A stretch of 64,000 nt of DNA from Granulicella rosea (lineage in GTDB: Bacteria; Acidobacteriota; Terriglobia; Terriglobales; Acidobacteriaceae), in NCBI RefSeq assembly GCF_900188085.1, contig NZ_FZOU01000002.1, forward strand, positions 310,001 to 374,000, given 5' to 3'. The notes under the pieces are model-generated. The model had not been told where the DNA came from. It saw nothing but the letters and a program-made list of their open reading frames with translations, and ran no database searches. Each line of letters opens with the position of its first letter. Position 1 is the first letter of the stretch. Position numbers and translations under genes: made by a program. This document shows, piece by piece, positions 18,310 through 33,517 of the stretch.

Positions 18310-18332
18310 TATGGCGGAGAGACAGGGATTCG
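18310..18332. repeat. Left attachment repeat (tRNA-Ser 3' fragment)
   Basis: This 23-bp copy of the last part of tRNA-Ser (T-arm 3' side, acceptor arm and CCA, in reverse orientation) is identical to 33428-33450. The sequences diverge immediately on both sides, which defines the core of the site. Confidence 0.92.
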
Positions 18333-18397: not shown

Positions 18398-18438
18398 ATT
18401 CGGGTCTGTAGCTCACGGGTGTGGTGGAGAGACTACGG

Positions 18439-19632
18439 ATGATTTCGGCGAAGAAAACCGCCCTCGTTTGGTACTGCAAAACAGCTAAAGGCTGGAGAAG
18501 ACTACCGGTTACGCTCGGTGCCAACAACAGGATTAAGCATGGCTACGTGACTCTCGACGGAGTGCTCACATACTGCCCTGAGGGACGCTACGAGATCCGT
18601 ACCTACGTGGACCGCAAAGCCGTCTACAAGCCCGCTGGAACCAATGCGGCTGACGCTATGGCGGCGCGGGACCGTGAGGCGAACCTGGTAGCTGCCAAGG
18701 GATACGCAGAAGCAGCAGGTGTCAAAGTTGAGGAAGATCCTGGCCGCGTGGTCCTTCGGAAGGCTGCTCTGAGGTTTGAGAATGATGCCAAAGAACGCGG
18801 CGCGTTGGAGGCAGCCGAAGTCAATCGGAATGTGACAGATGAGTTCCTAGCAGTTACGGGCAGAACGTATGCGGATGAAGTCACCCGAGACGACGTGTTC
18901 AAGTTTTACCGGGCGCTGAAGAATCGGGGCTGTGGCAGCCGGACCGTGAGCAACAAACACAAACGGCTCCGCAGCTTCTTCCGGTTCTGCAAACTAGACT
19001 ACAGCGAGATCCTGCCCCCGACCCCCAAGTATGACGCGACCGTTCCCAATACATACGGAGCCGACGACAGAGGCGACATTCTCAAGGTGGCAGACCTCTA
19101 TATGCGCTTGGTCATCGAACTCGGGATGATGTGCGGTCTCCGCGATCAGGAGATTCAACATCTCGAATGGGGAGACATCCGCTGGGACGATTCAACACTG
19201 AGGGTCACCAGCAAGCCTCACTGGAACTTCAAAATCAAGGACTCGGAAGAACGAGACATCCCGATTCCCTCTGTTCTCTTGGCGCACCTGAAGGAACGCA
19301 AGGCAGAATTTCCAGACGGCCGGCTGGTGGTCCCCACGGCCGCAGGCAAGCCCAACGGCAAGCTGCTCCGTTCCCTCAAACGGTTGGCAAAGGCCAAAGG
19401 ATTGAATTGCGGACTCTGCAAAGGCTGCCAGTCTTCCCTCGCCGAATGCCAGCAGTGGACATTACACAAGTTGCGGCGAACATACGGAACTACGCTGCTC
19501 CGCTCGGGCTTGGACCTGAGCACGGTTCAGAAGTTCATGGGGCATTCTGACCTCGCCTCCACCATGCGCTATTTGCAGCCTGCGACCTCCGCAGCATCGC
19601 AGGCTGCTATCAACGCCATCCATTGGGGCTAG
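18439..19632 (+). CDS. int: Tyrosine recombinase (element integrase)
   Basis: This site-specific recombinase of about 397 residues should insert the element at tRNA-Ser. It has an N-terminal core-binding domain (NVTDEFLAVTGRTYADEVTR onward) and a catalytic domain. The conserved residues are Arg235 in GLRDQEI, His343 and Arg346 in HKLRR, His369 in GHSD, and the nucleophile Tyr378 in STMRYLQ. A cysteine cluster, NCGLCKGCQSSLAEC, sits between the sheet region and the HxxR motif and may bind zinc. I prefer ATG 18439 with GGAG upstream; GTG codons at 18421 and 18424 are alternatives. The gene is next to the left attachment repeat, and its 3' end overlaps the convergent excisionase gene by 4 bp. 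Confidence 0.95.
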   Translation: MISAKKTALVWYCKTAKGWRRLPVTLGANNRIKHGYVTLDGVLTYCPEGRYEIRTYVDRKAVYKPAGTNAADAMAARDREANLVAAKGYAEAAGVKVEEDPGRVVLRKAALRFENDAKERGALEAAEVNRNVTDEFLAVTGRTYADEVTRDDVFKFYRALKNRGCGSRTVSNKHKRLRSFFRFCKLDYSEILPPTPKYDATVPNTYGADDRGDILKVADLYMRLVIELGMMCGLRDQEIQHLEWGDIRWDDSTLRVTSKPHWNFKIKDSEERDIPIPSVLLAHLKERKAEFPDGRLVVPTAAGKPNGKLLRSLKRLAKAKGLNCGLCKGCQSSLAECQQWTLHKLRRTYGTTLLRSGLDLSTVQKFMGHSDLASTMRYLQPATSAASQAAINAIHWG

Positions 19633-19856
19633 GCGACTGCCCTGTCCTCCAACCAGTCAGCCGTCGCCTGAGGATCGAATCTGACTGCTCCACCTACGCG
19701 GTAGCTGGGCATCCTTCCTTGTTTGGCCAGCCTGTATATATGTTTCTTGCTCAAGCTAAGGAGTTCCGCGAGATTCTCCGCTGTCCATGCCGAACGTCGG
19801 CAACGGATGTGAGAAACGATATTTCCTTCCTGTTTACCCTCAAGAGCCACGATCAC
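19629..19856 (-). CDS. Excisionase-like small helix-turn-helix protein
   Basis: This is a 75-residue protein with the MerR/AlpA-type DNA-binding pattern of excisionases: WTAENLAELLSLSKKHIYRL, then QGRMPSYRVGGAVRFDPQAT and WLEDR. Proteins of this kind steer the integrase towards excision or regulate early genes. The GTG start overlaps the stop of the upstream sigma-like gene (GTGA), which suggests translational coupling. It sits tail to tail with the integrase. Confidence 0.85.
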   Translation of the reverse strand: MIVALEGKQEGNIVSHIRCRRSAWTAENLAELLSLSKKHIYRLAKQGRMPSYRVGGAVRFDPQATADWLEDRAVA

Positions 19857-21319
19857 AGGGACACCCCCGCATTGTTCTTGCGGATGTCTGAGTGAGAGAC
19901 AAACGTGGTTTCACGCATCGTCTTGAGTTTCTCGAAGAATTTGTCTGCCCCACGCTTCGACAGTCCAGAGACTTCGATGGCCTGCCCCTTGGTCTTGCCT
20001 TGGACGAGTGCCCGAATGATTGCTTTGCCCGATTCGGACAGCTTGCCCCATTCGGAGTCAGGATCATTTAGCTGGCTCATCATCCTCTCAATGCGCCTGT
20101 CAGGTGCGTTCCAATCCTCCCGGTCACGGTTTGCGATCTCCCGCTCAACGTCAATCCAATAGAGCACCCCTGGCTCTCTCTCTTCCGTCTCGGCTTCATC
20201 GTTGTCAAACTCGTCATTGCTGACACGCGATTCCAAATTGTGTGTTTCGTGAAACTCGGTGACCCGCTCTGGGAAGAACCACCTCTTCCAGAGCATCTTT
20301 ATCCAGCTAGACAGGTTGCGCTCGGGGTCGCAATGTTGGCCTTTCTTCAGCCGGTCTGCAACATCAATAACGAAGTCTCCAAGGATGTCATCAGGCTCAA
20401 GGTCCGTCTCATAGCGCTTTAGCAAGTTCTCACAGTCGGAGTATCGACCGGCAAGAGGAGCAAAGGCATACAAGGCAGCTTGCAGGTTCCCGATCTCTGC
20501 CTCGGGATCAATGACGTAAGCCCGGTAGACCTGTTCCAAGGTGTGCTTATCGACCTTGTTGGTGGCCTTCAGGGACATCTTCTTGTAATCCGTGACGGCA
20601 TCTCGGGACTGAAGACGGATGGCATCTGTGAGCCATACACTGACCTCAGGTGCGGTCTCTCGATAGTCCTCAGACTCAACCCTAGCTGTAGTTGCCACGG
20701 GGGCAGGCTGGTCCGCTATGGACTCCCAATGACCGTCATCCTCGGTAGTCTTGATCCAAATCTTCTCGCCATAGACAAAGCCCTTCCACGGACTCCACTT
20801 CCAAGACGCTAGGGCAGCGCGGGCTTCCCTGGCATTCTCCATGTCGACGGCTTCGGCTTCATCCGTGGCACGCTGGTACGCGATCTCATCAAAGGACTCA
20901 GACTGACGTGCAATAGCGAGTTGCTCAGGTGTGAGTCCGAAGCGGCCACTAAGAACCGCAAGGATGAATTTCTCGGCTGGTTCCTTGCTCTTCCAGTCAC
21001 GGCGAGGGCTGACCTCATTGCGGTTGCCGTCGAAGTCGTGCGTCCTCGACTTTCCTTCCATCCCATAGGCAGACAGGGTCGTCGTGATTATGGCTTTGAC
21101 CGTCTCAGTTTTGGCTTGCAGGCGGGCAGCAGTCGCAACTTTTTTGGCTTTCCAAGTCGTTACCTGAGGGCTGGTCTCTGCACTTTGAGGCGCAAGAATC
21201 CACTCATCGACGGGCTGGCCGTCTTTGTTAATGGTGTGAAGTGGTTGAGGGTTAAGTTCGTTTTGGTCTGGTCCGATAGCTGAAAAAGGCACAAATCTCC
21301 AAGAGCCCGAGAGGCTCAA
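19853..21319 (-). CDS. Large element protein with sigma-factor-like segments
   Basis: This is a 488-residue hypothetical. Residues about 285-345 (SDCENLLKRYETDLEPDDIL, then DPERNLSSWIKMLWKRW) resemble region 2 of ECF sigma factors, with a DDIL-type acidic motif and a DPER-x-SSW helix. An acidic linker follows. Residues about 425-470 (ESGKAIIRALVQGKTKGQAI, then VSGLSKRGADKFFEKLK) look like a region-4 helix-turn-helix. The N-terminal 280 residues are unfamiliar. The sigma comparison is mine, from pattern only; another DNA-binding regulator is possible. The TTG start at 21319 is uncertain. It is coupled to the excisionase gene downstream. Confidence 0.6.
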   Translation of the reverse strand: MSLSGSWRFVPFSAIGPDQNELNPQPLHTINKDGQPVDEWILAPQSAETSPQVTTWKAKKVATAARLQAKTETVKAIITTTLSAYGMEGKSRTHDFDGNRNEVSPRRDWKSKEPAEKFILAVLSGRFGLTPEQLAIARQSESFDEIAYQRATDEAEAVDMENAREARAALASWKWSPWKGFVYGEKIWIKTTEDDGHWESIADQPAPVATTARVESEDYRETAPEVSVWLTDAIRLQSRDAVTDYKKMSLKATNKVDKHTLEQVYRAYVIDPEAEIGNLQAALYAFAPLAGRYSDCENLLKRYETDLEPDDILGDFVIDVADRLKKGQHCDPERNLSSWIKMLWKRWFFPERVTEFHETHNLESRVSNDEFDNDEAETEEREPGVLYWIDVEREIANRDREDWNAPDRRIERMMSQLNDPDSEWGKLSESGKAIIRALVQGKTKGQAIEVSGLSKRGADKFFEKLKTMRETTFVSHSDIRKNNAGVSL

Positions 21320-21564
21320 AGAGTCGATTTATGGATTTTTCCCGCTCATGCCCGGGCCGGCTCTCCCGAAACTGACAACCCCGACATTGGGTGTCGTTCC
21401 GGCTGGGGATGAATCTTTTGGGGACCGCTGTCCCCTTCTCTGCCCCTTCAGCTACCCCACGTCTGTCATAAATCCGCGTGGGTTCCGATTCTCACGGCCA
21501 AGTAACATCCTGTCCCCGAAGGGCAGACACCGGCTTTCATCAAGCCTTACACTTAGGAGAACAC

Positions 21565-21783
21565 ATGAATACCCTTGCGTCAAGAGAAATCTTGAAGTAT
21601 TATGCGTTTCTTGTGAAAAGGCTGTCAAACGGCCCTGTTAAAGAGATTAGGAAAGCAAATGCTGTGAGGGGGACACTTCTCATGGCTGTCGGGATGCTTG
21701 CACACTCTGCAAGCGTCTCAAGTCTCTGCCTGATAAACAGAGCACATGTCACGTTCTTGAGGGTGACAGAATCCAGCCGGTAA
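21565..21783 (+). CDS. Small protein of unknown function
   Basis: This 72-residue frame starts at ATG 21565 with AGGAGA at 21555-21560, a good ribosome binding site. The product begins MNTLASREILKYYAFLVKRL and is basic, with a hydrophobic middle (GTLLMAVGMLAHSASVSSL). I do not recognise it. The coding region overlaps the 40-bp direct repeat (21611-21650) and an inverted repeat (21697-21713), which makes it less certain to be a gene. Confidence 0.4.
   Translation: MNTLASREILKYYAFLVKRLSNGPVKEIRKANAVRGTLLMAVGMLAHSASVSSLCLINRAHVTFLRVTESSR
21611..21650 (+). repeat. 40-bp direct repeat, copy A
   Basis: It matches 22066-22105 at 36 of 40 positions, 455 bp away. It contains CTGTCAAACGG and TGTTAAAGAGA. 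Confidence 0.75.
21697..21713. promoter_or_regulatory. Inverted repeat CTTGCACACTCTGCAAG, copy 1
   Basis: The arms CTTGCA and TGCAAG surround CACTC. An identical 17-mer lies at 22982-22998, and its 13-bp core is at 22883-22895. It is a possible operator of an element regulator. Confidence 0.5.
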
Positions 21784-22183
21784 CGGTTGGCGGGTGTGGC
21801 TAGGTTCCAAGTTTAAAACCTCGTCCTGGGCTCGATAGACCAATCAACCTTGTGACAGCGAGGTTGTCAAACAAGCCGGGCGCTACTTGGCTCCATGCTC
21901 AAGATTTTTTGAGAGTTGGCGGAAGATAGGTTAACTATAGCTCCGTCTCAAGATAAGTAACACCTCGATAAGATCGCTAGAGCTTTATAGAAACAGTCTG
22001 TTCACAGGCTGTATATATGGGCGCGATTCACATAAAACACCGAGATAGAAAATATCTTTGAGTATTTGTGAAAAGCCTGTCAAACAGACCTGTTAAAGAG
22101 ACTAGAGGGGACATGTTGCCTTTCTCCGATAGCGGGGTGTGCCCTGGTCCGGTACACCCCACCTTTACAGAAAGCGAGTCCTG
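21784..22183 (+). promoter_or_regulatory. Leader region of the small early operon, no gene seen
   Basis: This 400-bp stretch holds no convincing gene. It contains two TGTCAAAC motifs (21865-21872 and 22078-22085), the second copy of the 40-bp repeat (22066-22105), and a hairpin with arms GGGGTGT (22134-22140) and ACACCCC (22154-22160) just before the start of the 136-residue gene. It looks like a regulated leader; an attenuator is possible. Confidence 0.4.
22066..22105 (+). repeat. 40-bp direct repeat, copy B
   Basis: It is 36/40 identical to 21611-21650. It contains the perfect palindrome CTGTCAAACAG. Confidence 0.75.
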
Positions 22184-22594
22184 ATGATTTCCCTTCCCCA
22201 GATTGAATTGAACGTTGTCCGTGCATACATCCAGCACGTACAGGCCCGATTCCCTGCCGGTCATTACCTGAATGATCGTTATGTTCAGATTCTCAAGATT
22301 CGAGAGTGGCAACTCCGACGGAGACTCCTAAATGAAACCGGCACCCTGGCCGACCTTGAGCCTCTGAATACGGGGCACAGAGAGGCAGAACGCTTCCTGT
22401 TCGATGTCGACAAGGGCAGCCGCAAGGATGTCATTAGAGAGATCAACGACATTCTGCAACTCATCGCCATGGAGTTCTTCGCAGAGATCACCACCATCGA
22501 AGCACAACACCCGCACTTGGGGCAGGAGTTCGCCCGCGAACAAGAGGCCTACCGCTTGATGTGGAACAGCTATGTAGAAGAGGCAGAAGCATGA
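22184..22594 (+). CDS. Element protein of unknown function, mainly helical
   Basis: This 136-residue protein is charged, rich in Glu, Arg and Leu, and predicted helical throughout (for example LNDRYVQILKIREWQLRRRL and REAERFLFDVDKGSRKDVIR). There is no signal peptide or known motif. ATG 22184 was chosen because the upstream 15 codons overlap a hairpin; the ribosome binding site is weak. Its stop overlaps the next start (ATGA). The position between regulators and head genes suggests an early or packaging-related role, but this is a guess. Confidence 0.65.
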   Translation: MISLPQIELNVVRAYIQHVQARFPAGHYLNDRYVQILKIREWQLRRRLLNETGTLADLEPLNTGHREAERFLFDVDKGSRKDVIREINDILQLIAMEFFAEITTIEAQHPHLGQEFAREQEAYRLMWNSYVEEAEA

Positions 22595-22842
22595 AGTTTG
22601 AAGAACCAGCACTAAGTCACAATGCCAAGCGCCTATTCTGGATCGTGGTTCGCATCGCCACTGACAGAGGAACGGAAAGCGTCAGCATCAGAGACCAAGA
22701 GGTTGCCAGTCGCGCTGGCTTCCCATTGAAGTATCTCAAGGACGCACAGCTTGAACTCAAGACCGCAGACCTCTTAACCATTCGGCAGGGCGGTACGCGG
22801 GCAACGTATGAACTCATTCCGGTAGATCCCTCACCCATTTAG
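22591..22842 (+). CDS. Small winged-helix-like protein
   Basis: This 83-residue protein is coupled to the upstream gene by ATGA. The pattern SHNAKRLFWIVVRIATDRGT, then SIRDQEVASRAGFPLKYLKD and a beta-hairpin (LTIRQGGTRATYELI), fits a winged helix-turn-helix of the kind found in replication initiators and small regulators. It may bind DNA, for example the inverted repeats that follow at 22883 and 22982. No close family was recognised. Confidence 0.6.
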   Translation: MKFEEPALSHNAKRLFWIVVRIATDRGTESVSIRDQEVASRAGFPLKYLKDAQLELKTADLLTIRQGGTRATYELIPVDPSPI

Positions 22843-23286
22843 ACATGCGTAGACGCCCTTCCTGTGCGTCTATGAGCAGGGCTGCACACTCTGCAACAGT
22901 TGGCCGCGATCCTTCTGTTGCTGCTGTGCAGTCCGACTGACGATGGATGGTGACGCACAACTGCTCCCATCCATCACTCACCTTGCACACTCTGCAAGAC
23001 ACATTGCCAGCGGCCCCTACACCGCTGGCATGGGCACGGCTTCAGCAGACGCTCAGTAACTCAGCAAAGTGAATGAAGCTTCCCTCCTAGCCGTGCCCTA
23101 AAAAGATTGCTGATGGCCACGCACCCATCAGCAGTAACCGGTTGGCCTCACTCCCTTTAGACTCCAACCTAAGGTGTGCCAACCTCATGGCGTCGTGGTG
23201 CGTCGAGCCATCGCTCCGCACCCGGACCCTCACCCTTTGACCTCCAATGGCCCACAACTCCCTATGCAGCATGAAAGCCCACACAC
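22843..23286. promoter_or_regulatory. Non-coding stretch with two TGCA-N5-TGCA sites
   Basis: No gene with support is seen in these 444 bp. The stretch holds TGCACACTCTGCA at 22883-22895 and CTTGCACACTCTGCAAG at 22982-22998. It precedes the head genes and could be their control region. A 62-codon minus-strand frame here lacks support. Confidence 0.45.
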
Positions 23287-23712
23287 ATGGAAGTGACATG
23301 CACCGTCAACCTCAACGGTATCGCTGAGAAGCTCCAAGAACTAGGTCCAAAACTCGCGCGCAGAGCCCTACGCAAGGCTGTAGCAGCCTCAGGTGACATG
23401 TGGGTTGATGAGATGAAGTCTCGCGTACCTGTAGACACTGGTGGCCTCAGAGACTCTATCAAGGCCAAAGTGAGCTCAAGAGGTGGCAAGAACTCTGCCT
23501 CTGCCAAGGTAAGCGTTGGCCCTACCTACGACACAAAGACCGCAAAGAAGAATGGTGCACCTTCCCAGCAGCCTGGCGTCTACGGAATGTTCGTTGAGTT
23601 CGGGACCAAAGACGCCAAAGCCACACCGTTCATGCGTCCGACCTTTGACGCGACTACAGACAAGGCAGTTGAGATCTTCGCCAACGTGATACGCGAAGAC
23701 CTGGGCCTCTAA
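23287..23712 (+). CDS. HK97 gp10-like phage protein
   Basis: This 141-residue protein of the HK97 gp10 family is a head-tail completion or minor tail component. The family pattern is clear: LARRALRKAVAASGDMWVDE, then SRVPVDTGGLRDSIK, and a C-terminal GMFVEFGTKDAKATPFMRPT. In tailed phages this gene usually follows the capsid gene and the connectors; here it comes before the portal gene and no tail genes are present. There is no clear ribosome binding site before ATG 23287. Confidence 0.88.
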   Translation: MEVTCTVNLNGIAEKLQELGPKLARRALRKAVAASGDMWVDEMKSRVPVDTGGLRDSIKAKVSSRGGKNSASAKVSVGPTYDTKTAKKNGAPSQQPGVYGMFVEFGTKDAKATPFMRPTFDATTDKAVEIFANVIREDLGL

Positions 23713-24041
23713 CTGTAAAGAGTTTGGGTCAAACCAGCCTGACCAAGCGACGAAAGAAAGCCCCGAAGGGGGTATGGGCCTCTTCAAACAGGCGATTATT
23801 CCCCTTGCAGACCGACTGGGGAACCAAATTTTTATGTCCACAAATCAATAAAACGGTGTCAAACGTGACCATTTCCGCTTGCACAGTGTGCGTGTGTGAG
23901 TTGAGGGGCAGCCGTAGTCAGGCGCTTACCAGACTTACCAGCCGCTCTGCCTCAGTTTAGCAGCGATATCCAATCAATTCAGCAGGCTCTAGCGATCAGT
24001 GAGTTTACTTGGTGGCCCTGCCCTCCACATGAAAGAACCCT
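23713..24041. other. Gap before the portal gene
   Basis: No confident gene is seen. The gap contains one TGTCAAAC motif (23857-23864), a half-similar CTTGCACAGTGTGC near 23878, a 25-codon frame from ATG 23772 after AAGGGGG, and an open frame without a start (23905-24045, listed separately). It may hold a promoter for the head genes or a decayed gene. Confidence 0.35.
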
Positions 24042-24045
24042 ATGA
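23905..24045 (+). pseudogene. Open frame without start, ending inside the portal start codon
   Basis: From a TGA at 23902 this frame stays open for 46 codons and stops at a TGA that overlaps the portal ATG (ATGA). The product ends SISEF-like as LAISEFTWWPCPPHERTL, which looks protein-like. No ATG, GTG or TTG is present, so it may be the remnant of a gene (perhaps the end of a lost packaging gene) or chance. Confidence 0.25.
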
Positions 24046-25307
24046 ATCTACGAAGTCTTTTCTCCCTTGGGCCTTCCCAGCCTGAGCAGCGGAGCACTGC
24101 CGGCCCGTTTGTTGGTCTCGGCTCCTCTACCCCGTGGCAAATCTTCAGTGGGGGCAGACAGTCTGATGCTGGTGAAGTTGTTAATTCCATCACCGCAATG
24201 CAGCAATCCAGCGTGAACTCCTGCGTTCGGCTGATTAGTGAATCGGTGGCGAGTATGAGTCCAATCCTCTATGTGAAGTCTGGAGAGGGACGGGCTGAGG
24301 CGTTCAGCAATCCTTTGCATGACATCCTCTGCCTACAGCCGAACCCCGACTGTAGCGCGTTCACCATGTGGGATTCCTTTGTTGGTTCCATCGCCCTGAC
24401 CGGCAATGGCTACCTAGAGATAACTCGCAACGGTAGCGGCACGATCAACGGACTCTGGTACCTTCATCCCCTTCAGACCACGGCATACAGAGCAACAGAC
24501 GGCTCTCTCTTCTATCGAACCACTGATGGTCTATCGGCTCGTGAGAGTAGAGAGCTACCAGCCAAAGACGTGATTCATGTGCCTTGGCACAGCACCAACG
24601 GCGTAACGGGCATGAGCGTCATTGAGCAGAACCGCAATGCAATCGGCGGCGCTATCGCAATGGATAAGCACGCTGGCAGGTTCTTTGCGAACAATGCTAC
24701 GCCTTCCGGTGTCCTGACTACGGATAAACAGGTCAAGCCTGAAGTAAAGCTCCAGATGCGGAATGACTGGGAGGAAATGCAGTCAGGCACCAACCAGCAT
24801 CGTGTTGCGGTGCTGGATCAGGATTTGAAATTTCAGCAGATCACTATCAGCAACGAGGACAGCCAGTTCCTTGAGAGTCGCAACATGAGCAGGCAGGAAA
24901 TCTGTGGCCTGTTCCGTATAAACCCTTCGCAGATAGGTGACACATCCCGCGTAGCTGGCGAGACATTCGCCGCGCAGCAGTTGACCTTCCTTGTGGATTG
25001 TTTGCGTCCGTGGCTCAACAGGATCTCTCAGGAGCTTCATAGAAAGCTCTTGGTTGGTTTGCCTGGCTACACCATCGAGCACGACATCAGCGACCGCCTC
25101 CGCGTTGACTTCAAGACTCAGATGGACGGCTTTGCTGTGGCCCGTCAGTGGGGCTTTGCAACCGCCAATGAAGTACGCAAGGAACTCGGGCAGAATCCGT
25201 TTCCTGGTGAAGAGGCCAACGTCCTGCTCTCGCCCGTGAACATGATGGATGCGAAGAAATTGCTTCTGCCTCCCGCACCAGCAACACAGGTAACCCTCAA
25301 TGAATAG
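24042..25307 (+). CDS. HK97-family phage portal protein
   Basis: The protein has 421 residues, the usual portal size. The portal forms the dodecameric channel at one head vertex for DNA entry. Visible family segments are VNSCVRLISESVASMSPILY, NPLHDILCLQPN, then GNGYLEITRNGSGTINGLWY, VIHVPWHSTNGVTGMSVIEQ and SRNMSRQEICGLFRINPSQI. The ATG at 24042 overlaps an upstream stop. The 3' end overlaps the protease start by 8 bp. A functional portal normally needs a terminase; none is seen in the element. Confidence 0.93.
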   Translation: MNLRSLFSLGPSQPEQRSTAGPFVGLGSSTPWQIFSGGRQSDAGEVVNSITAMQQSSVNSCVRLISESVASMSPILYVKSGEGRAEAFSNPLHDILCLQPNPDCSAFTMWDSFVGSIALTGNGYLEITRNGSGTINGLWYLHPLQTTAYRATDGSLFYRTTDGLSARESRELPAKDVIHVPWHSTNGVTGMSVIEQNRNAIGGAIAMDKHAGRFFANNATPSGVLTTDKQVKPEVKLQMRNDWEEMQSGTNQHRVAVLDQDLKFQQITISNEDSQFLESRNMSRQEICGLFRINPSQIGDTSRVAGETFAAQQLTFLVDCLRPWLNRISQELHRKLLVGLPGYTIEHDISDRLRVDFKTQMDGFAVARQWGFATANEVRKELGQNPFPGEEANVLLSPVNMMDAKKLLLPPAPATQVTLNE

Positions 25308-25998
25308 ACGTGAACAGCTTTACCTTCCCGCAAAGGAACTGCGCGTGCAGACGGGGGCAGACGGGTCTAAGACTTTGGGCGGTTATGCCCTCGTCTACAA
25401 CAGCCGCTCTGTCGACCTTGGTGGCTTCACCGAGTTGATTGCACCTGGTGCAGTGACAGAAAGCCTGAAACAGAATCCTGATGTCCTTATGCTCCGCGAT
25501 CACAAGCAAGAGTTACTGATGGGCAGGACTAAGGCAGGCACGCTGACGCTCATAGATGACCCTGTGGGGCTTCGGTTCAGTTGTAAGCTACCTGACACTC
25601 AACAGGCTATCGACCTTGCCACCTCGGTCACCAGAGGCGATCTAGACGGCGTTTCCTTCGGCTTCCAGACCATTGAAGACAGTTGGACTTCTGACGGTGA
25701 AGGCAATGTCATTCGGACCCTGCTCAAGATCAACTTGTTTGAGATCAGCCCAACATCGTTTGCGGCGTACCCGGCAGCCAATGTCTCGGTTCGCTCCTGC
25801 CCGCCCGAACTCCGCAGTCTGCTTCGTTCCAAGCGGGACGATCAAGACGAGGATGAATGCGACTGTGAAAAGAACCCTGACGGAACACATGTGGACCCTG
25901 ATTGCACATGTGACGACGAGGATGAGCAGGACCGCTCCACGCTCTTGAACTGGTCTGAACGAACGCTGTTGCGCATTGAAGTAGCCCGCCGCAAGTAG
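25300..25998 (+). CDS. HK97-family prohead protease with Asp/Cys-rich tail
   Basis: This 232-residue prohead protease processes the capsid protein during head maturation. Catalytic candidates are His in LMLRDHKQELLMGRT and Ser in LDGVSFGFQT, as in HK97 gp4-type proteases. The fold is preceded by GGYALVYNSRSVDLGGFTEL. After the protease domain comes an unusual acidic, cysteine-bearing tail (DDQDEDECDCEKNPDG, then DPDCTCDDEDEQD) with two CxC motifs, which might bind metal or act as a scaffold or DNA-mimic segment. It overlaps portal by 8 bp. Confidence 0.88.
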   Translation: MNRREQLYLPAKELRVQTGADGSKTLGGYALVYNSRSVDLGGFTELIAPGAVTESLKQNPDVLMLRDHKQELLMGRTKAGTLTLIDDPVGLRFSCKLPDTQQAIDLATSVTRGDLDGVSFGFQTIEDSWTSDGEGNVIRTLLKINLFEISPTSFAAYPAANVSVRSCPPELRSLLRSKRDDQDEDECDCEKNPDGTHVDPDCTCDDEDEQDRSTLLNWSERTLLRIEVARRK

Positions 25999-26083
25999 TA
26001 CCCAACCCCACCTTCCGCACTTGAAGAACACACCTCCCGCAATGGGGGGATGGCGGCCCCGTGCCCCAAAGAAAAGAGAACCA

Positions 26084-27250
26084 ATGACTTTTGCAGAACT
26101 CTCCGAACGTCGCAATAAGCTGATGAACGATGCAACCACCCTGGCCCGCACGAAGGACATCACCATCGAGCAGAGACAGCAGGTTAAGCGGATGCTTGCC
26201 GACGTTGACGACCTTGAGGAACAGCGCAGCGTTGCACAGCGCATCGAGGCATTTGAAGCTGAACAGCGTGCGTTCACTCGCCCGCCCCGTGGCAATCTTT
26301 CGGAGACTGTTGTAGACGCGGAAGCGCAGAAGCGTGCACTCCGTAACTTCATCTGTGGTGAAAAGCGTGACCTTGGCGTTGGTGCTGTCGCTGGCAACAT
26401 CACTGGTGGCAGCCAGCTTGTAGCCCCTGCGTTCTATCCGCTCTTGACGGCCGCACAGCAGGCTTATGGCGGCCTGGTGAACATCGTCAATCAGCGCACG
26501 ACGGACACTGGCGCGAGTATGAAGGTTGGGTTCGTCAATGACGTGACCGACGGCCTTCAGAGTTGGGCAGAGGATTCGGCTGCGTCGACCGTTGATCCTA
26601 CCCTGTCGACCGAGACCAGCAATACCGAGATGTACAACACGGGTGTCATCCTGGTGACGTTGGAAGAGCTTCAGGATAGCTTCTTCGATCTTGACGCATT
26701 CATCCGTGATGCCTTCGGCCAGCGTCTCTATCGTGGCCTTGCCAAGTACATCTCGCAGGGCAGCACGTCTGGAAACTACATCAGCTATCTGACCGGCGCA
26801 ACGTCTGGTGCAACTTCGGCAAATCCCACCGCTATTGGATACGTGGATATCGCTGCCCTGTATGCTTCGCTCGATCCCGCATACGTCAGCAATGCAACGT
26901 GGGTGATGAACTCGGCAACCCGTGGCGCACTCATTGGAGTGACTGACACGCTTGGCCGTCCGCTGTTCATCCCGTCGCCGAACGCGGGTGCATTCGATAC
27001 ACTGCTTGGCCGTCCTGTGGTTCTGGACCAGTTCGCCCCGAACATCGGTGCGGGCAATAAGGCACTCGCATTCGGTGACTTCAAGGCAGGCTATACGCTC
27101 CGCAGCGTTGGTCAATTTGAGATTGCGAAAGATCCTTACACTTACCTGATTAGCAAGGGTGCCGTTGCCTTCATCGGTTATGGCCGTGGTGGTTCGTTCG
27201 TTACGGATGCTGGCACCCACCCCATCAAGGTACTGACGCAGCACGCATAA
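26084..27250 (+). CDS. HK97-fold major capsid protein
   Basis: This 388-residue protein should form the head shell. The N-terminal ~90 residues (FAELSERRNKLMNDATTLAR onward) are a coiled-coil delta/scaffold domain, normally removed by the protease encoded just upstream. The shell domain starts around GGSQLVAPAFYPLL and includes NIVNQRTTDTGASMKVGFVN, the P-domain segment TLEELQDSFFDLDAFIRD and the C-terminal VGQFEIAKDPYTYLISKG. ATG 26084 follows AAAGAGA; an upstream in-frame ATG at 26021 lacks a site and would add unrelated residues. A terminator follows 17 bp after the stop. Confidence 0.93.
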   Translation: MTFAELSERRNKLMNDATTLARTKDITIEQRQQVKRMLADVDDLEEQRSVAQRIEAFEAEQRAFTRPPRGNLSETVVDAEAQKRALRNFICGEKRDLGVGAVAGNITGGSQLVAPAFYPLLTAAQQAYGGLVNIVNQRTTDTGASMKVGFVNDVTDGLQSWAEDSAASTVDPTLSTETSNTEMYNTGVILVTLEELQDSFFDLDAFIRDAFGQRLYRGLAKYISQGSTSGNYISYLTGATSGATSANPTAIGYVDIAALYASLDPAYVSNATWVMNSATRGALIGVTDTLGRPLFIPSPNAGAFDTLLGRPVVLDQFAPNIGAGNKALAFGDFKAGYTLRSVGQFEIAKDPYTYLISKGAVAFIGYGRGGSFVTDAGTHPIKVLTQHA

Positions 27251-27267
27251 GCAACAGCAACAAAGAA

Positions 27268-27303
27268 CCCCACACTCAAATCAACGAGTGTGGGGCTTTT
27301 CGT
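27268..27303 (+). terminator. Rho-independent terminator after the capsid gene
   Basis: The arms CCCCACACTC and GAGTGTGGGG (10 bp, 8-nt loop) are followed by CTTTTCG. It closes the portal-protease-capsid transcript. Confidence 0.9.
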
Positions 27304-27321
27304 CGTTTACGGGTAATCTAC

Positions 27322-27852
27322 TTAGAAATAGACGCAGAGACCAGAATTTGGCCCAGCGGGTAAACCCAGCGCAGTATCTAACCCAATATTGTTGCGTAGA
27401 TCAGCTAAGAGTGATGCTGCGTTAACCGTTGTGCCGATCTTCGGTTCAGAATCCGGTCGCGGATTTTCTACAGCTTTAGCTCTGTAAACCGTAACGTCTG
27501 CATGACCTAATTCTATTGCTCTCAAGCACACTCCCCGAATGTAGTATCGGTTAAACTCACCTTCCGCTAACATTTCATGAGCATTAGACCGCATTATGGG
27601 AGGTTTGGAGAGTGCTCCAGACTTGAGTTGACGTGGTTTTTCATGAGAGTTGAGGCGCGGCAAAATCTGCGCGGCCAGCGTGCTGTCTGTACCATTGGCG
27701 GCAGCGCCTTTGAGAAGATCCGGATAGTCCACCTGCCCCTGAGGGCTCAAGTTTCCGCTCTTATAGAGTGTGTTTTTGGCTAGATCGCCGTCAATTTCGG
27801 TAGTCATCAACTGCCGAACCTCAGGAACAAGGTTCTTGTAATCGAGCGCCAT
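27322..27852 (-). CDS. Conserved hypothetical protein, cargo
   Basis: This is a 176-residue protein. ATG 27852 was chosen because GAGG lies 6 nt upstream; a TTG four codons earlier is also in frame. The central block GEFNRYYIRGVCLRAIELGH, then VTVYRAKAVENPRPDSEPKI, and the end DTALGLPAGPNSGLCVYF resemble a small hypothetical family that I recall from environmental bacteria, without a known function. There are no membrane segments or signal peptide. It is convergent to the capsid operon and separated by the terminator. Confidence 0.7.
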   Translation of the reverse strand: MALDYKNLVPEVRQLMTTEIDGDLAKNTLYKSGNLSPQGQVDYPDLLKGAAANGTDSTLAAQILPRLNSHEKPRQLKSGALSKPPIMRSNAHEMLAEGEFNRYYIRGVCLRAIELGHADVTVYRAKAVENPRPDSEPKIGTTVNAASLLADLRNNIGLDTALGLPAGPNSGLCVYF

Positions 27853-28029
27853 GAGAATCCTCAAGTTATGGTCAAGTTTGATCCAAGTTGGAGATAGACC
27901 GATATCGCGGGCAAGTCTATAAAAAAGAATACCTAAGCAGCACTCTCATTGAGAGAGTCGAGAGCGGCGCACAGAGAGCCAAGTTGCGATTCCTGGCAGT
28001 CTATCCTGCTACTGCGTAAAGGACATGCC

Positions 28030-28203
28030 CTAGAGGGCACCACCCGGTCTCTTCTTCGCTTCTTCAACTTCTTTCGTCTTGTCTGAACTCTCATCCGCCT
28101 GACCGTTGAAGTCCCTTGGACCGATATACTCCGCTTTTTGCTTTTCTATTTCTTCAGTACGTTGTGTAGATTCGAATAGCTGGTCAGTTGTACGCGACTT
28201 CAT
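28030..28203 (-). CDS. Small charged protein, cargo
   Basis: This is a 57-residue frame. AGGAG sits 6 nt before ATG 28203, an excellent ribosome binding site. The product starts MKSRTTDQLFESTQRTEEIE and ends EVEEAKKRPGGAL. It is very hydrophilic and probably helical or disordered. It starts 1 bp after the stop of the frameshifted gene upstream, so the two were one operon. No family was recognised. Confidence 0.6.
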   Translation of the reverse strand: MKSRTTDQLFESTQRTEEIEKQKAEYIGPRDFNGQADESSDKTKEVEEAKKRPGGAL

Positions 28204-28204
28204 G

Positions 28205-28598
28205 TCAATCTCCTGGGAGAACTTGAGGTGTGACTGTTGCTTTTTCTATGCCTTTCTCTCGCAAAATACAACTAGCATTCCATTCAACACCTTTCGAGAC
28301 AACTCGCAAACCGAGCCGTAGGCCCACAAAGGTTGCGGGATCAGGAACCCGCAGGATCAAAGACTCATCTATCTGTTCCCCGGGCTCGATCCAAGCATGA
28401 TCTTTGAAGATTTCTGCGCCTGGGATAGACTCACGCCCTGACCGCCTGAGGCAGGCTGCGCTAAGGTATGTTCCCTTCTGCTTGATGATGTATTTGGACT
28501 GACCAAGGTTCTTGAGACGACATAGAAGCCTCTAGCTGATTGCCTTTTGCCACCAATGCAGCGATGTCCTTGGTGTATCTCTCAATAGAAGAACTCAT
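28205..28598 (-). pseudogene. Frameshifted gene
   Basis: A good start (ATG 28598 with GAGG upstream) gives MSSSIERYTKDIAALVAKGN, but this frame stops at 28461. A second frame, open from 28531 to the TGA at 28205, reads as convincing protein (for example RSGRESIPGAEIFKDHAWIE and SLILRVPDPATFVGLRLGLR) yet has no start codon of its own in its first half. The two overlap near 28520-28540, so one gene was probably split by a small indel or deletion. The second half resembles beta-sandwich regions of membrane-anchored hypotheticals, but I cannot name it. Confidence 0.6.
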
Positions 28599-28778
28599 CT
28601 GGACCTCATGCGCGAATTCTAGCAGCCCGTGTGAGGAATTCGAGTGCTAATAGTCAAAGAACGGCATGGCCTACCCCAGTGTCACGACCGCTACGCTTTT
28701 CCCGTTGAAAGATTCCTCTTCCGTTCCCGACACATACGGTGCTATCCTCCCCGTGATTCTTCAGCGAGGGCTGACACG

Positions 28779-29035: not shown

Positions 29036-29683
29036 ATGCACACCGACTATGTAGCCCCACAACTTAGGGGTGATGCTTTCAATTGTCCCGCCTGCTATGC
29101 CTACGCGCAGCAGCTTTGGCTTAACTATGGCCAGCAGCTTCCGCCATACCACAGCCATACAGAGTGGTCGGGGGATCTGATGGGAGCCTTTTGTACGCAC
29201 TGCAAGAAAGTGTCTCTCTGGTTGAATCAGAAGATGATCTACCCAGCCACTTTGACGGCTCCCGCAGCCCATGCGGATACGCCAACGGACATCGCGAAAG
29301 ATTTTGACGAGGCAAGAAGCGTCCTAGCCTCATCTCCGCGATCTGCCGCAGCCTTATTACGCCTATGTGTTCAAAAGCTGTGCATCGTGTTGGGGGAGCC
29401 TGGCCAAAACATCAACGCGGACATAGGCAGTTTGGTCGCGAAAGGTCTCTCCCCTCACATTCAACAGGCCCTCGATATCGTTCGAGTGGTTGGGAATGAA
29501 CAGGTTCATCCTGGCACCTTAGATGTCCGAGACAATCCAGAGATCGCGCTGAGACTCTTCGCACTGGTCAACTTTATTGTTGACGACCAGATCAGCAAGC
29601 CCAAAGCTATCGCAGAACTGTACGCTCAGTTGCCACCTTCAAAGTTGAACGGTATAGCAAACCGAGACAAGACAAAGCCCTGA
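29036..29683 (+). CDS. DUF4145 protein with N-terminal zinc ribbon, cargo
   Basis: This is a 215-residue protein. The N-terminal part has CPACYAYAQ and CTHCKKVSLW, a two-CxxC zinc ribbon. The C-terminal half fits DUF4145: DFDEARSVLASSPRSAAALL, RLCVQKLC, then IVRVVGNEQVHPGTLDVRDN and LFALVNFIVDD. DUF4145 occurs alone and fused to restriction and other defence proteins; its activity is unknown. The start is ATG 29036. The gene lies between two terminators, so it is its own transcription unit. Confidence 0.8.
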   Translation: MHTDYVAPQLRGDAFNCPACYAYAQQLWLNYGQQLPPYHSHTEWSGDLMGAFCTHCKKVSLWLNQKMIYPATLTAPAAHADTPTDIAKDFDEARSVLASSPRSAAALLRLCVQKLCIVLGEPGQNINADIGSLVAKGLSPHIQQALDIVRVVGNEQVHPGTLDVRDNPEIALRLFALVNFIVDDQISKPKAIAELYAQLPPSKLNGIANRDKTKP

Positions 29684-30597: not shown

Positions 30598-31153
30598 TCA
30601 CGCGCTGTTGAGCATGTTTGGCCCGTTGTTCCTGACGTTCCCAACCAGCGGATTCGCAGCCGTCATCTCCATGTCCTCAGCCTCATACGGCCGCAGGAGA
30701 TCTAAGGGCAGTTGCTCCGTCACCTCGCGGGACAACCAGCGGTCGTAATCCCGGCTGTGGAGAATGACCGGCATTCGGGTATGAACCCGCTGCATGAGCT
30801 CGTTAGCCTCTGTGGTCACGATGCTAAAGGACTGAAGCCAGTGCCCCTGGCCGTCCTTCCATGCGTCCCAGAGCCCCGCAAACGCGAATAGCGGGCTGCC
30901 CCTGACCGTGAACGCATACGGCTGTTTCGTCTTGGCGTCGATCTTTTTCCACTCATAGAACGCTGAGGCAGGAATGAGGCAGGAATGAGGCAGGAATGAG
31001 GCAGCGGCGCTTCTTGAACGGTTCACGCCATTTAGGGCTGGTGCGGACGTTCTCGGCCTTGGCATTGATAGTCGAGATGCCCTTGATATCGGATAGCTGC
31101 TTTGTGAATATATTCGCCTTTGTTTCGCCTATGATCTGCTGATGCGTGAACTC
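30598..31153 (-). pseudogene. SRAP (YedK/HMCES-type) protein gene, broken
   Basis: SRAP proteins crosslink to abasic sites in single-stranded DNA through Cys2. The family core is visible but split between frames. One frame gives STINAKAENVRTSPKWREPF and KKRRCLIPAS; the other gives AFYEWKKIDAKTKQPYAF, then FAGLWDAWKDGQG, SIVTTEANELMQRVHTRMPV and ILHSRDYDRWL. The break is at an 11-bp tandem repeat (30964-31004) with two extra units (22 bp). The start is also lost: the upstream frame runs into a stop without the MCGRY N-terminus that holds the catalytic Cys. It is almost certainly non-functional. Confidence 0.82.
30964..31004. repeat. 11-bp tandem repeat inside the SRAP pseudogene
   Basis: TGAGGCAGGAA is repeated three times plus an 8-bp partial copy. 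Removal of two units (22 bp) would restore one reading frame across LIPAS-AFYEW. Confidence 0.92.
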
Positions 31154-33427: not shown

Positions 33428-33450
33428 TATGGCGGAGAGACAGGGATTCG
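33428..33450. repeat. Right attachment repeat (inside tRNA-Ser)
   Basis: This is a 23-bp identical copy of 18310-18332, covering the 3' part of the intact tRNA-Ser. Confidence 0.92.
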
Positions 33451-33517
33451 AACCCTGGATACCTTGCGGTATACACGCTTTCCAAGCGTGCGCCTTCAGC
33501 CACTCGGCCATCTCTCC
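33430..33517 (-). tRNA. tRNA-Ser (anticodon GGA)
   Basis: The gene is 88 nt including an encoded CCA. The acceptor arms are GGAGAGA and TCTCTCC, the anticodon stem CACGC/GCGTG has loop TTGGAAA, a long variable arm (TACCGCAAGGTA) is typical of serine tRNA, and the T loop is GGTTCGAATCC. It is the integration target: its 3' end is duplicated at 18310-18332, and its old downstream sequence now lies left of the element. Confidence 0.96.

Follow-up and report, generated by a model that had tools for sequence, protein, structure and literature searches.

The gene at 19853..21319 (− strand) of the window, by which is meant the whole 64 kb stretch of DNA analysed, probably encodes a diverged ECF-like sigma factor that is co-expressed with an excisionase (Xis) and redirects the host RNA polymerase to the late genes of a satellite. 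Its product belongs to a family of proteins whose genes lie, in Edaphobacter and its relatives, in elements with an integrase or a capsid, and the homology of this product to the sigma-70 family is supported at the level of that family.

The open reading frame is uninterrupted and specifies 488 amino acid residues from a TTG start; a GTG at 21292 (residue 10), with GGAG 4 nt upstream, is a plausible alternative start. Two short motifs had been pointed out in the preliminary description of this DNA. DDIL is present at residues 310-313, but the second, given as DPER-x-SSW, was one residue short, the actual sequence being DPERNLSSW (residues 331-339). Both fall within a segment (residues about 258-359; 20243..20548, −) that aligns as sigma region 2, and a region-4-like helix-turn-helix follows at residues about 429-473 (19901..20035, −), located by the alignments and by helices at 429-439, 444-451, and 455-479 in the full-length model. 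The N-terminus is long, as had been remarked: approximately 255 residues precede region 2, and no fold can be assigned to them.

Searched alone, the 488-residue protein matched no Pfam family up to E = 10, no NCBIfam model up to 0.05, and no phage record up to E = 1; its best PHROG match (0.12) was not significant and its best match among PDB sequences (0.95) was not a sigma factor. Single-sequence searches of phages, genome contigs, and viral contigs gained no relatives. A two-row profile of this protein and its closest relative, G025, retrieved only these two, at a limit of 0.1, from 62 genomes of the genus to which Edaphobacter lichenicola M8US30 belongs, and no sigma factor from the PDB. 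Against the viral contigs, A2 and the G025 protein gained nothing and P0005 recovered itself only. The sigma likeness is, therefore, not demonstrable from the protein's own sequence, and emerges through its relatives.

Searches for capsids and integrases led to the elements in which the sigma-like genes were first spotted on visual inspection; most of them have an excisionase-like gene on one side and the head genes on the other. Thirteen family genes are counted here: those of the window, G025, L049 (V49), L051 (V51), L053 (G023), L064 (G045), L066 (G037), L067 (G057), L069 (G002), L101 (G400), L103 (G318), L102 (G031b), and L068 (G031a). G400 and G318 belong to other genera of the same bacterial family, V49 and V51 are contigs from viral collections, and L051, L101, L102, and L103 were added by profiles. 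The core identity of the members to the 488-residue protein is 11-21%. The G025 protein (526 aa) is encoded on a contig of Edaphobacter lichenicola M8US30 by a gene that adjoins tRNA-Ser(GGA), and its C-terminus is an HTH_17 excisionase domain (2.3e-9); the two coupled genes of the window are thus a single gene in G025. L068 (170 aa) is the outlier (leave-one-out 0.0095, no adjoining xis gene) and is nevertheless retained in the counts of 13. A capsid match was found in 10 of the 62 genomes of the genus; within the stretches examined, six of these contain a sigma-like gene and G031 the short L068 version, and the capsid-positive G036, G055, and G053 have no family gene among the ORFs of at least 80 aa. 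L006 and L007 were dropped as relatives, their matches being marginal (0.002 and 0.008) and their frames overlapping other ORFs. L058 (G053), in which no sigma core was found, was likewise left out; in its 461-aa protein (L058:538-1923, −) a C-terminal excisionase domain is joined to an N-terminal part of another kind.

In a tree of the 13 members and 22 ECF factors the 488-residue protein pairs with G025 (0.855). The tree does not set the family apart from the ECF factors as a single group; V49, G045, G400, and G318 fall nearer to those factors, so that several origins are possible. Across the class, profile A4 matched 393 of 399 genomes (at most seven candidates scored per genome), a count that gives no abundance of the satellite family because A4 also picks ordinary ECF factors.

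An ECF-like region 2 and a later region-4 helix-turn-helix had been proposed from the single sequence; it is the family alignments that support them. Leave-one-out searches were run against a background of 1,087 ORFs and 1,800 shuffled proteins. The profile of eight other members matched the 488-residue protein at E = 1.2e-10 (best shuffled protein 0.034), falling to 6.2e-9 without G025 and to 7.5e-7 without G025 and L068 (best shuffle 0.42, best non-family ORF 0.07). Over the four runs leaving this protein out, the best shuffle ranged from 0.034 to 0.42, and ORFs other than the 13 reached 0.037 to 0.093 at best. In the PDB the nine-member profile aligned with ECF sigma factors from region 2 through region 4 (best 60 of 96 sequences), with AlgU/SigH at 3.8e-9, RpoE at 4.5e-7, CnrH at 4.8e-6, and SigW at 4.1e-5; it also matched non-sigma helix-turn-helix proteins by region 4 alone, among them the designed repeat 8vd6 (3.6e-7), GerE (1.7e-4), and NarL (4.5e-4). 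A profile of six relatives, without the 488-residue protein, G025, and L068, still found SigH in the PDB at 1.8e-5 over both regions. The family profile and the leave-one-out results take in region 2 with its conserved 2.2 Asp and the 2.3-2.4 helix, and the profile matches extend through the region 4 helix-turn-helix located C-terminally of it. The Asp of region 2.2 is retained in 12 of the 13 members and an acidic residue four positions on in 10, while the Gln of the DxxQE motif is replaced by Gly in the 488-residue protein; a region-3 model gave no match in it.

TIGR02937 (sigma70-ECF), applied to 10 of the 13 members at E up to 0.05, matched eight (6.4e-9 to 0.047), each below the curated cut-off, and neither the 488-residue protein nor L067; no scanned member passed a curated sigma cut-off, and the 488-residue protein is without any match. 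Region 4 was matched weakly in the relatives P0005 (5.4e-4), P0004 (0.008), and L053 (0.0086), all below the gathering scores, and PHROG 1740 (RNA polymerase sigma factor) matched L101 at 4.7e-9. A profile built from 22 ECF factors of other genomes, themselves chosen by the nine-member family profile, recognized V49 (3.1e-13), G045 (1.2e-9), G002 (1.9e-6), V51 (2.1e-5), G057 (4e-5), and G023 (4.6e-5), and weakly G037 (0.066); the 488-residue protein and G025 are not among the 23 matches listed. In hhalign comparisons the six relatives align with the 22 ECF factors at 99.3% and with the pair formed by the 488-residue protein and G025 at 88.6%, versus 1.4% for that pair aligned with the ECF factors directly. 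The assignment of the window's protein consequently runs along a chain, from window to family to ECF factors: the protein alone fits no sigma profile, whereas the family profile fits ECF regions 2 to 4.

The region comprising residues 255-475 was modeled using AlphaFold from an alignment with three relatives, these having the clearer sigma likeness. The core model is all helical and of low confidence (mean pLDDT 62, pTM 0.38). Foldseek returned no E under 0.001; judging from their titles, its seven leading rows out of 36 are either sigma factors or chains from sigma and phage transcription-initiation complexes. With VIA-align, the first 18 rows are all sigma factors or phage sigma-type chains, named by title except for rows 1 and 15, which were named by likely chain, and rows 10 and 12, which we take to be sigma factors from their codes. 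The top row, 7d7c_F from a gp55-dependent polymerase complex, superposes at 2.9 Å over 88 residues (Z 7.6), followed by ShbA (7.5) and RpoE (7.3); row 19 is a chain of a polymerase III initiation complex (Z 5.0). Eleven of the 18 superpose region 2 at 2.7 to 5.0 Å, one extending further, and the other seven span the core at 14 to 20 Å only. The structural comparison thus gives sigma-type first rows at low model confidence, and all its Z scores are below 8, values below 13 being common for helical bundles. No unrelated fold was matched with confidence, and the two segments do fit sigma domains, a fit that needs the relatives. The full-length model is poor (46.8), with residues 1-254 mostly under 50 and no usable N-terminal fold.

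The excisionase gene (19629..19856, −) encodes a protein of 75 aa with a winged-helix domain of the excisionase type (HTH_17 at 2.8e-10, which exceeds the gathering score; PHROG "excisionase and regulator" 6.5e-8), which a leave-one-out profile of 11 other excisionase-like proteins matches at 5.4e-9. The stop codon of the sigma-like gene overlaps its start by 4 nt (GTGA, 19856-19853), so the coupling described earlier stands, and the pairing is conserved among the relatives: an excisionase-like gene is fused to, or lies within 155 nt of, 12 of the 13 family genes. The excisionase gene comes before the sigma-like gene in V49, G023, G045, G037, G057, G002, G400, G318, and G031b and after it in the window and V51; the two are fused in G025, and L068 has no excisionase gene. 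Among 10 such neighbours scanned, six carry HTH_17 at 0.01 or better, two of them above the gathering score, and the remaining four were found by a leave-one-out excisionase profile at 2e-19 or better; that profile missed the excisionase-like genes of G045 and V51. By comparison, such an ORF occurs near one of 22 other ECF loci, assumed to be chromosomal (limit 0.01, up to about 1.5 kb on each side). The family loci had been found by capsid, integrase, or sigma searches, with proximity to an excisionase gene as no criterion, though in some of them the ORFs around that gene were read first.

A near-consensus housekeeping-type promoter, TTGACA-18-CATAAT (21599..21628, −; 11 of 12 positions), points toward the sigma-like and excisionase genes, although sigma-70-type sites in 19500-28700 are not above chance (three found versus 4.6 expected in shuffles). 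The excisionase gene shares an operon with the sigma-like gene, which it follows, downstream of this ordinary-looking putative promoter. Excision and the sigma gene may accordingly be turned on at the same time, without the sigma factor itself being the switch.

The virus-like element of a soil bacterium that carries this operon is approximately 15.1 kb in length and is bounded by 23-bp repeats at a tRNA-Ser gene. The left copy of the attachment-type repeat (18310..18332) is identical to the right copy (33428..33450), which lies at the 3′-end of tRNA-Ser(GGA) (33430-33517, −); a 21-bp part of the repeat has two occurrences in the window and no more, even when three mismatches are allowed, and none in shuffles. 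A tyrosine integrase gene (18421..19632, +; Pfam Phage_integrase 2.7e-22, PHROG integrase 6.6e-39) is convergent with the leftward sigma-excisionase pair. Rightward run the conserved genes g2 (22139..22594, +; ATG probably at 22184) and g3 (22561..22842, +), followed by those for an HK97-gp10-like neck protein (23287..23712, +; Pfam 1e-11, PHROG 7.8e-20), portal protein (24042..25307, +; Pfam 7.1e-93), prohead protease (25300..25998, +; Pfam Peptidase_S78 1.1e-43), and major capsid protein (26021..27250, +; Pfam Phage_capsid 1.9e-35). Homologues of g2 are found downstream of the sigma gene in L064 (1.9e-7) and L066 (2.7e-8), and g3 has homologues in L049, L051, L053, and L064; a small ORF, "g1", used as a query, matched only itself. 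The ORFs of at least 300 aa in the element are the integrase, the sigma-like gene, the portal, the capsid, and one antisense to the capsid. A terminator-like hairpin, on both strands, lies directly after the capsid gene (27266-27297), and the cargo end of the element encodes a DUF4145 protein (29036-29683) and an SRAP-type peptidase (30598-31065), model positions 1-90 being absent from the Pfam match of the latter.

The large terminase is absent from the element, in which two Pfam-confirmed TerL queries match nothing, and the 17 ORFs scanned with Pfam and/or PHROGs yielded no recognizable small terminase, HNH endonuclease, or tail gene, the sole exception being a weak TerS-type helix-turn-helix match of the excisionase (1.5e-5). 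These general scans did not bring an anti-sigma gene to light either, a point against the sigma reading. Elsewhere TerL is present in L053, L065, and L068, and a small terminase in L066 and L101 (by Pfam) and in L049 and L069 (by PHROGs); the candidate in L067 gave no match. Since L053 carries TerL at L053:5421-7097, the pairing of sigma-like and excisionase genes is not restricted to elements that lack a terminase. Iteron-like repeats (TTATTACATTAT four times and TTGATTATCCAT three times), possibly a replication origin, occur at about 14985-15067 of L069.

Two sequences are candidate control sites. Five copies of TGTCAAAC occur in the 64 kb, all inside the element and on the + strand (20203, 21623, 21865, 22078, and 23857), with four of the copies lying in spacers upstream of g2 and of the portal gene. 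No 8-mer reached four copies in 300 shuffles, but two of the copies share one 40-bp duplication (21611-21650 and 22066-22105, 90% identical). Reading TGTCAAAC as a promoter led nowhere, its direction being ambiguous because its reverse complement contains TTGACA. A 72-aa ORF without a family match (ATG at 21565, AGGAG upstream) overlies the first copy of the duplication. The other sequence, TGCACACTCTGCAA, has three occurrences and is part of a dyad, CTTGCA-N5-TGCAAG, located at 21697-21713, 22881-22897, and 22982-22998 in spacers before head genes (two exact, one altered), which is a possible operator. A simple scan of 19500-28700 revealed no sigma-70-type site on the head-gene strand, which was counted in favour of the sigma reading. 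No promoter motif common to ten elements was found in a two-block search, which yielded five motifs common to three elements versus zero to eight in five shuffles.

We infer that, upon an inducing signal, the operon would be derepressed and both products made; Xis would direct the integrase, so that the element is excised, and the sigma factor would bind the host core RNA polymerase, which would be redirected to satellite promoters before the rightward head genes and thus control them. That the sigma likeness arose by chance in an unrelated helical protein is very improbable: the single sequence has no significant match, but the leave-one-out statistics with their ORF and shuffle backgrounds, together with the uniform structural rows, led us to reject this explanation. 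We hold it just as doubtful that the protein is a satellite weapon, occupying RNA polymerase and disturbing the transcription of the helper phage or host. Satellites are reported to manipulate the gene expression of invading viruses (PMC7567579), and the motif search found no promoter of the element's own. The conserved pairing with the excisionase gene, however, points to the element's own life cycle.

The main rival, rather unlikely in our estimation though well ahead of those two, is that the protein derives from a sigma factor and keeps the folds of regions 2 and 4 but, no longer having sigma activity, regulates by binding DNA or assists in excision. Such a protein would join Xis at attachment or regulatory sites, or would be an activator resembling the late regulators of the ArpU/RinA type. 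The fusion to an excisionase domain in G025 is congruent with this explanation, as are the linkage to xis rather than to the head genes, the loss of the region 2.2 Gln, the great divergence of the members, and the lack of a shared promoter motif. Against it, both sigma segments are kept in order and the 2.2 Asp in nearly every member, features that a pure DNA-binding protein would not need. A sigma factor acting on the satellite's own late genes is the explanation that we favour. As to its wider scope, we see roughly even chances that phage satellites in Terriglobia repeatedly use a "sigma-Xis" operon for their control, each element producing a diverged sigma factor of its own along with its excisionase; excision and the switch of the polymerase to head genes would then become one decision, partly independent of the transcription factors of the helper phage.

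Phage-encoded sigma factors exist, and orf7 of Tn916 may be a sigma-like neighbour of xis. T4 gp55 is the late sigma factor of a lytic phage with further late factors; the protein described here may resemble it, in that the top structural row of the predicted core comes from a gp55-dependent complex and an element-encoded factor would be expected to drive head genes. The ECF (group 4) sigma factors AlgU/SigH, RpoE, SigW, and CnrH likewise consist of region 2 followed by region 4, whereas the family protein has its long N-terminal part, scores below the curated cut-offs, and resides in mobile elements with an excisionase-like gene as regular neighbour. Another mobile-element-encoded sigma factor is SigN (ZpdN) of Bacillus subtilis plasmid pBS32, which, according to the abstract, is first transcribed from housekeeping promoters and guides RNA polymerase to the plasmid's own genes (PMC6751061); this is a plasmid, not a satellite, and that abstract mentions no pairing with an excisionase. 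In Staphylococcus aureus the alternative sigma factor sigma-H is reported to control prophage int and excision (PMC2869324), a likeness in that a sigma factor governs an integration gene; sigma-H, by contrast, is the host's and not the element's.

The capsid-forming PICIs are described, in the portion of PMC10690885 used here, as having their own capsid, protease, portal, and connector genes with tails supplied by a helper, and as carrying both terminase subunits and HNH. The window's element shares the former genes, but differs in its missing large terminase and in having no recognizable small terminase or HNH among the ORFs scanned. The word "sigma" is absent from the main text of a review of capsid-forming PICI-type elements (PMC11389934) and from the available text of PMC11924767, as is "sigma factor" from that of PMC5900883. 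Neither a satellite-encoded sigma factor nor a satellite sigma-type factor in one operon with an excisionase was met in the literature searched, most subscription papers lying outside it. Sigma factors of mobile elements and capsid-forming satellites are both known; the new part, as read from the sequences, would be the combination of a sigma-type factor and an excisionase in one operon.

The timing of satellite gene expression is usually explained by signals from the helper phage or the host. If our reading is true, a satellite could conduct its late programme by itself through a sigma factor of its own that is coupled to excision, and the sigma-70 family would gain a deeply divergent branch that escapes current models. 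The conserved pairing of sigma-like and excisionase genes offers a simple, testable handle on this question and, as related elements repeat it, activation of their genes may lie partly with the elements themselves and not only with the host or a helper virus.
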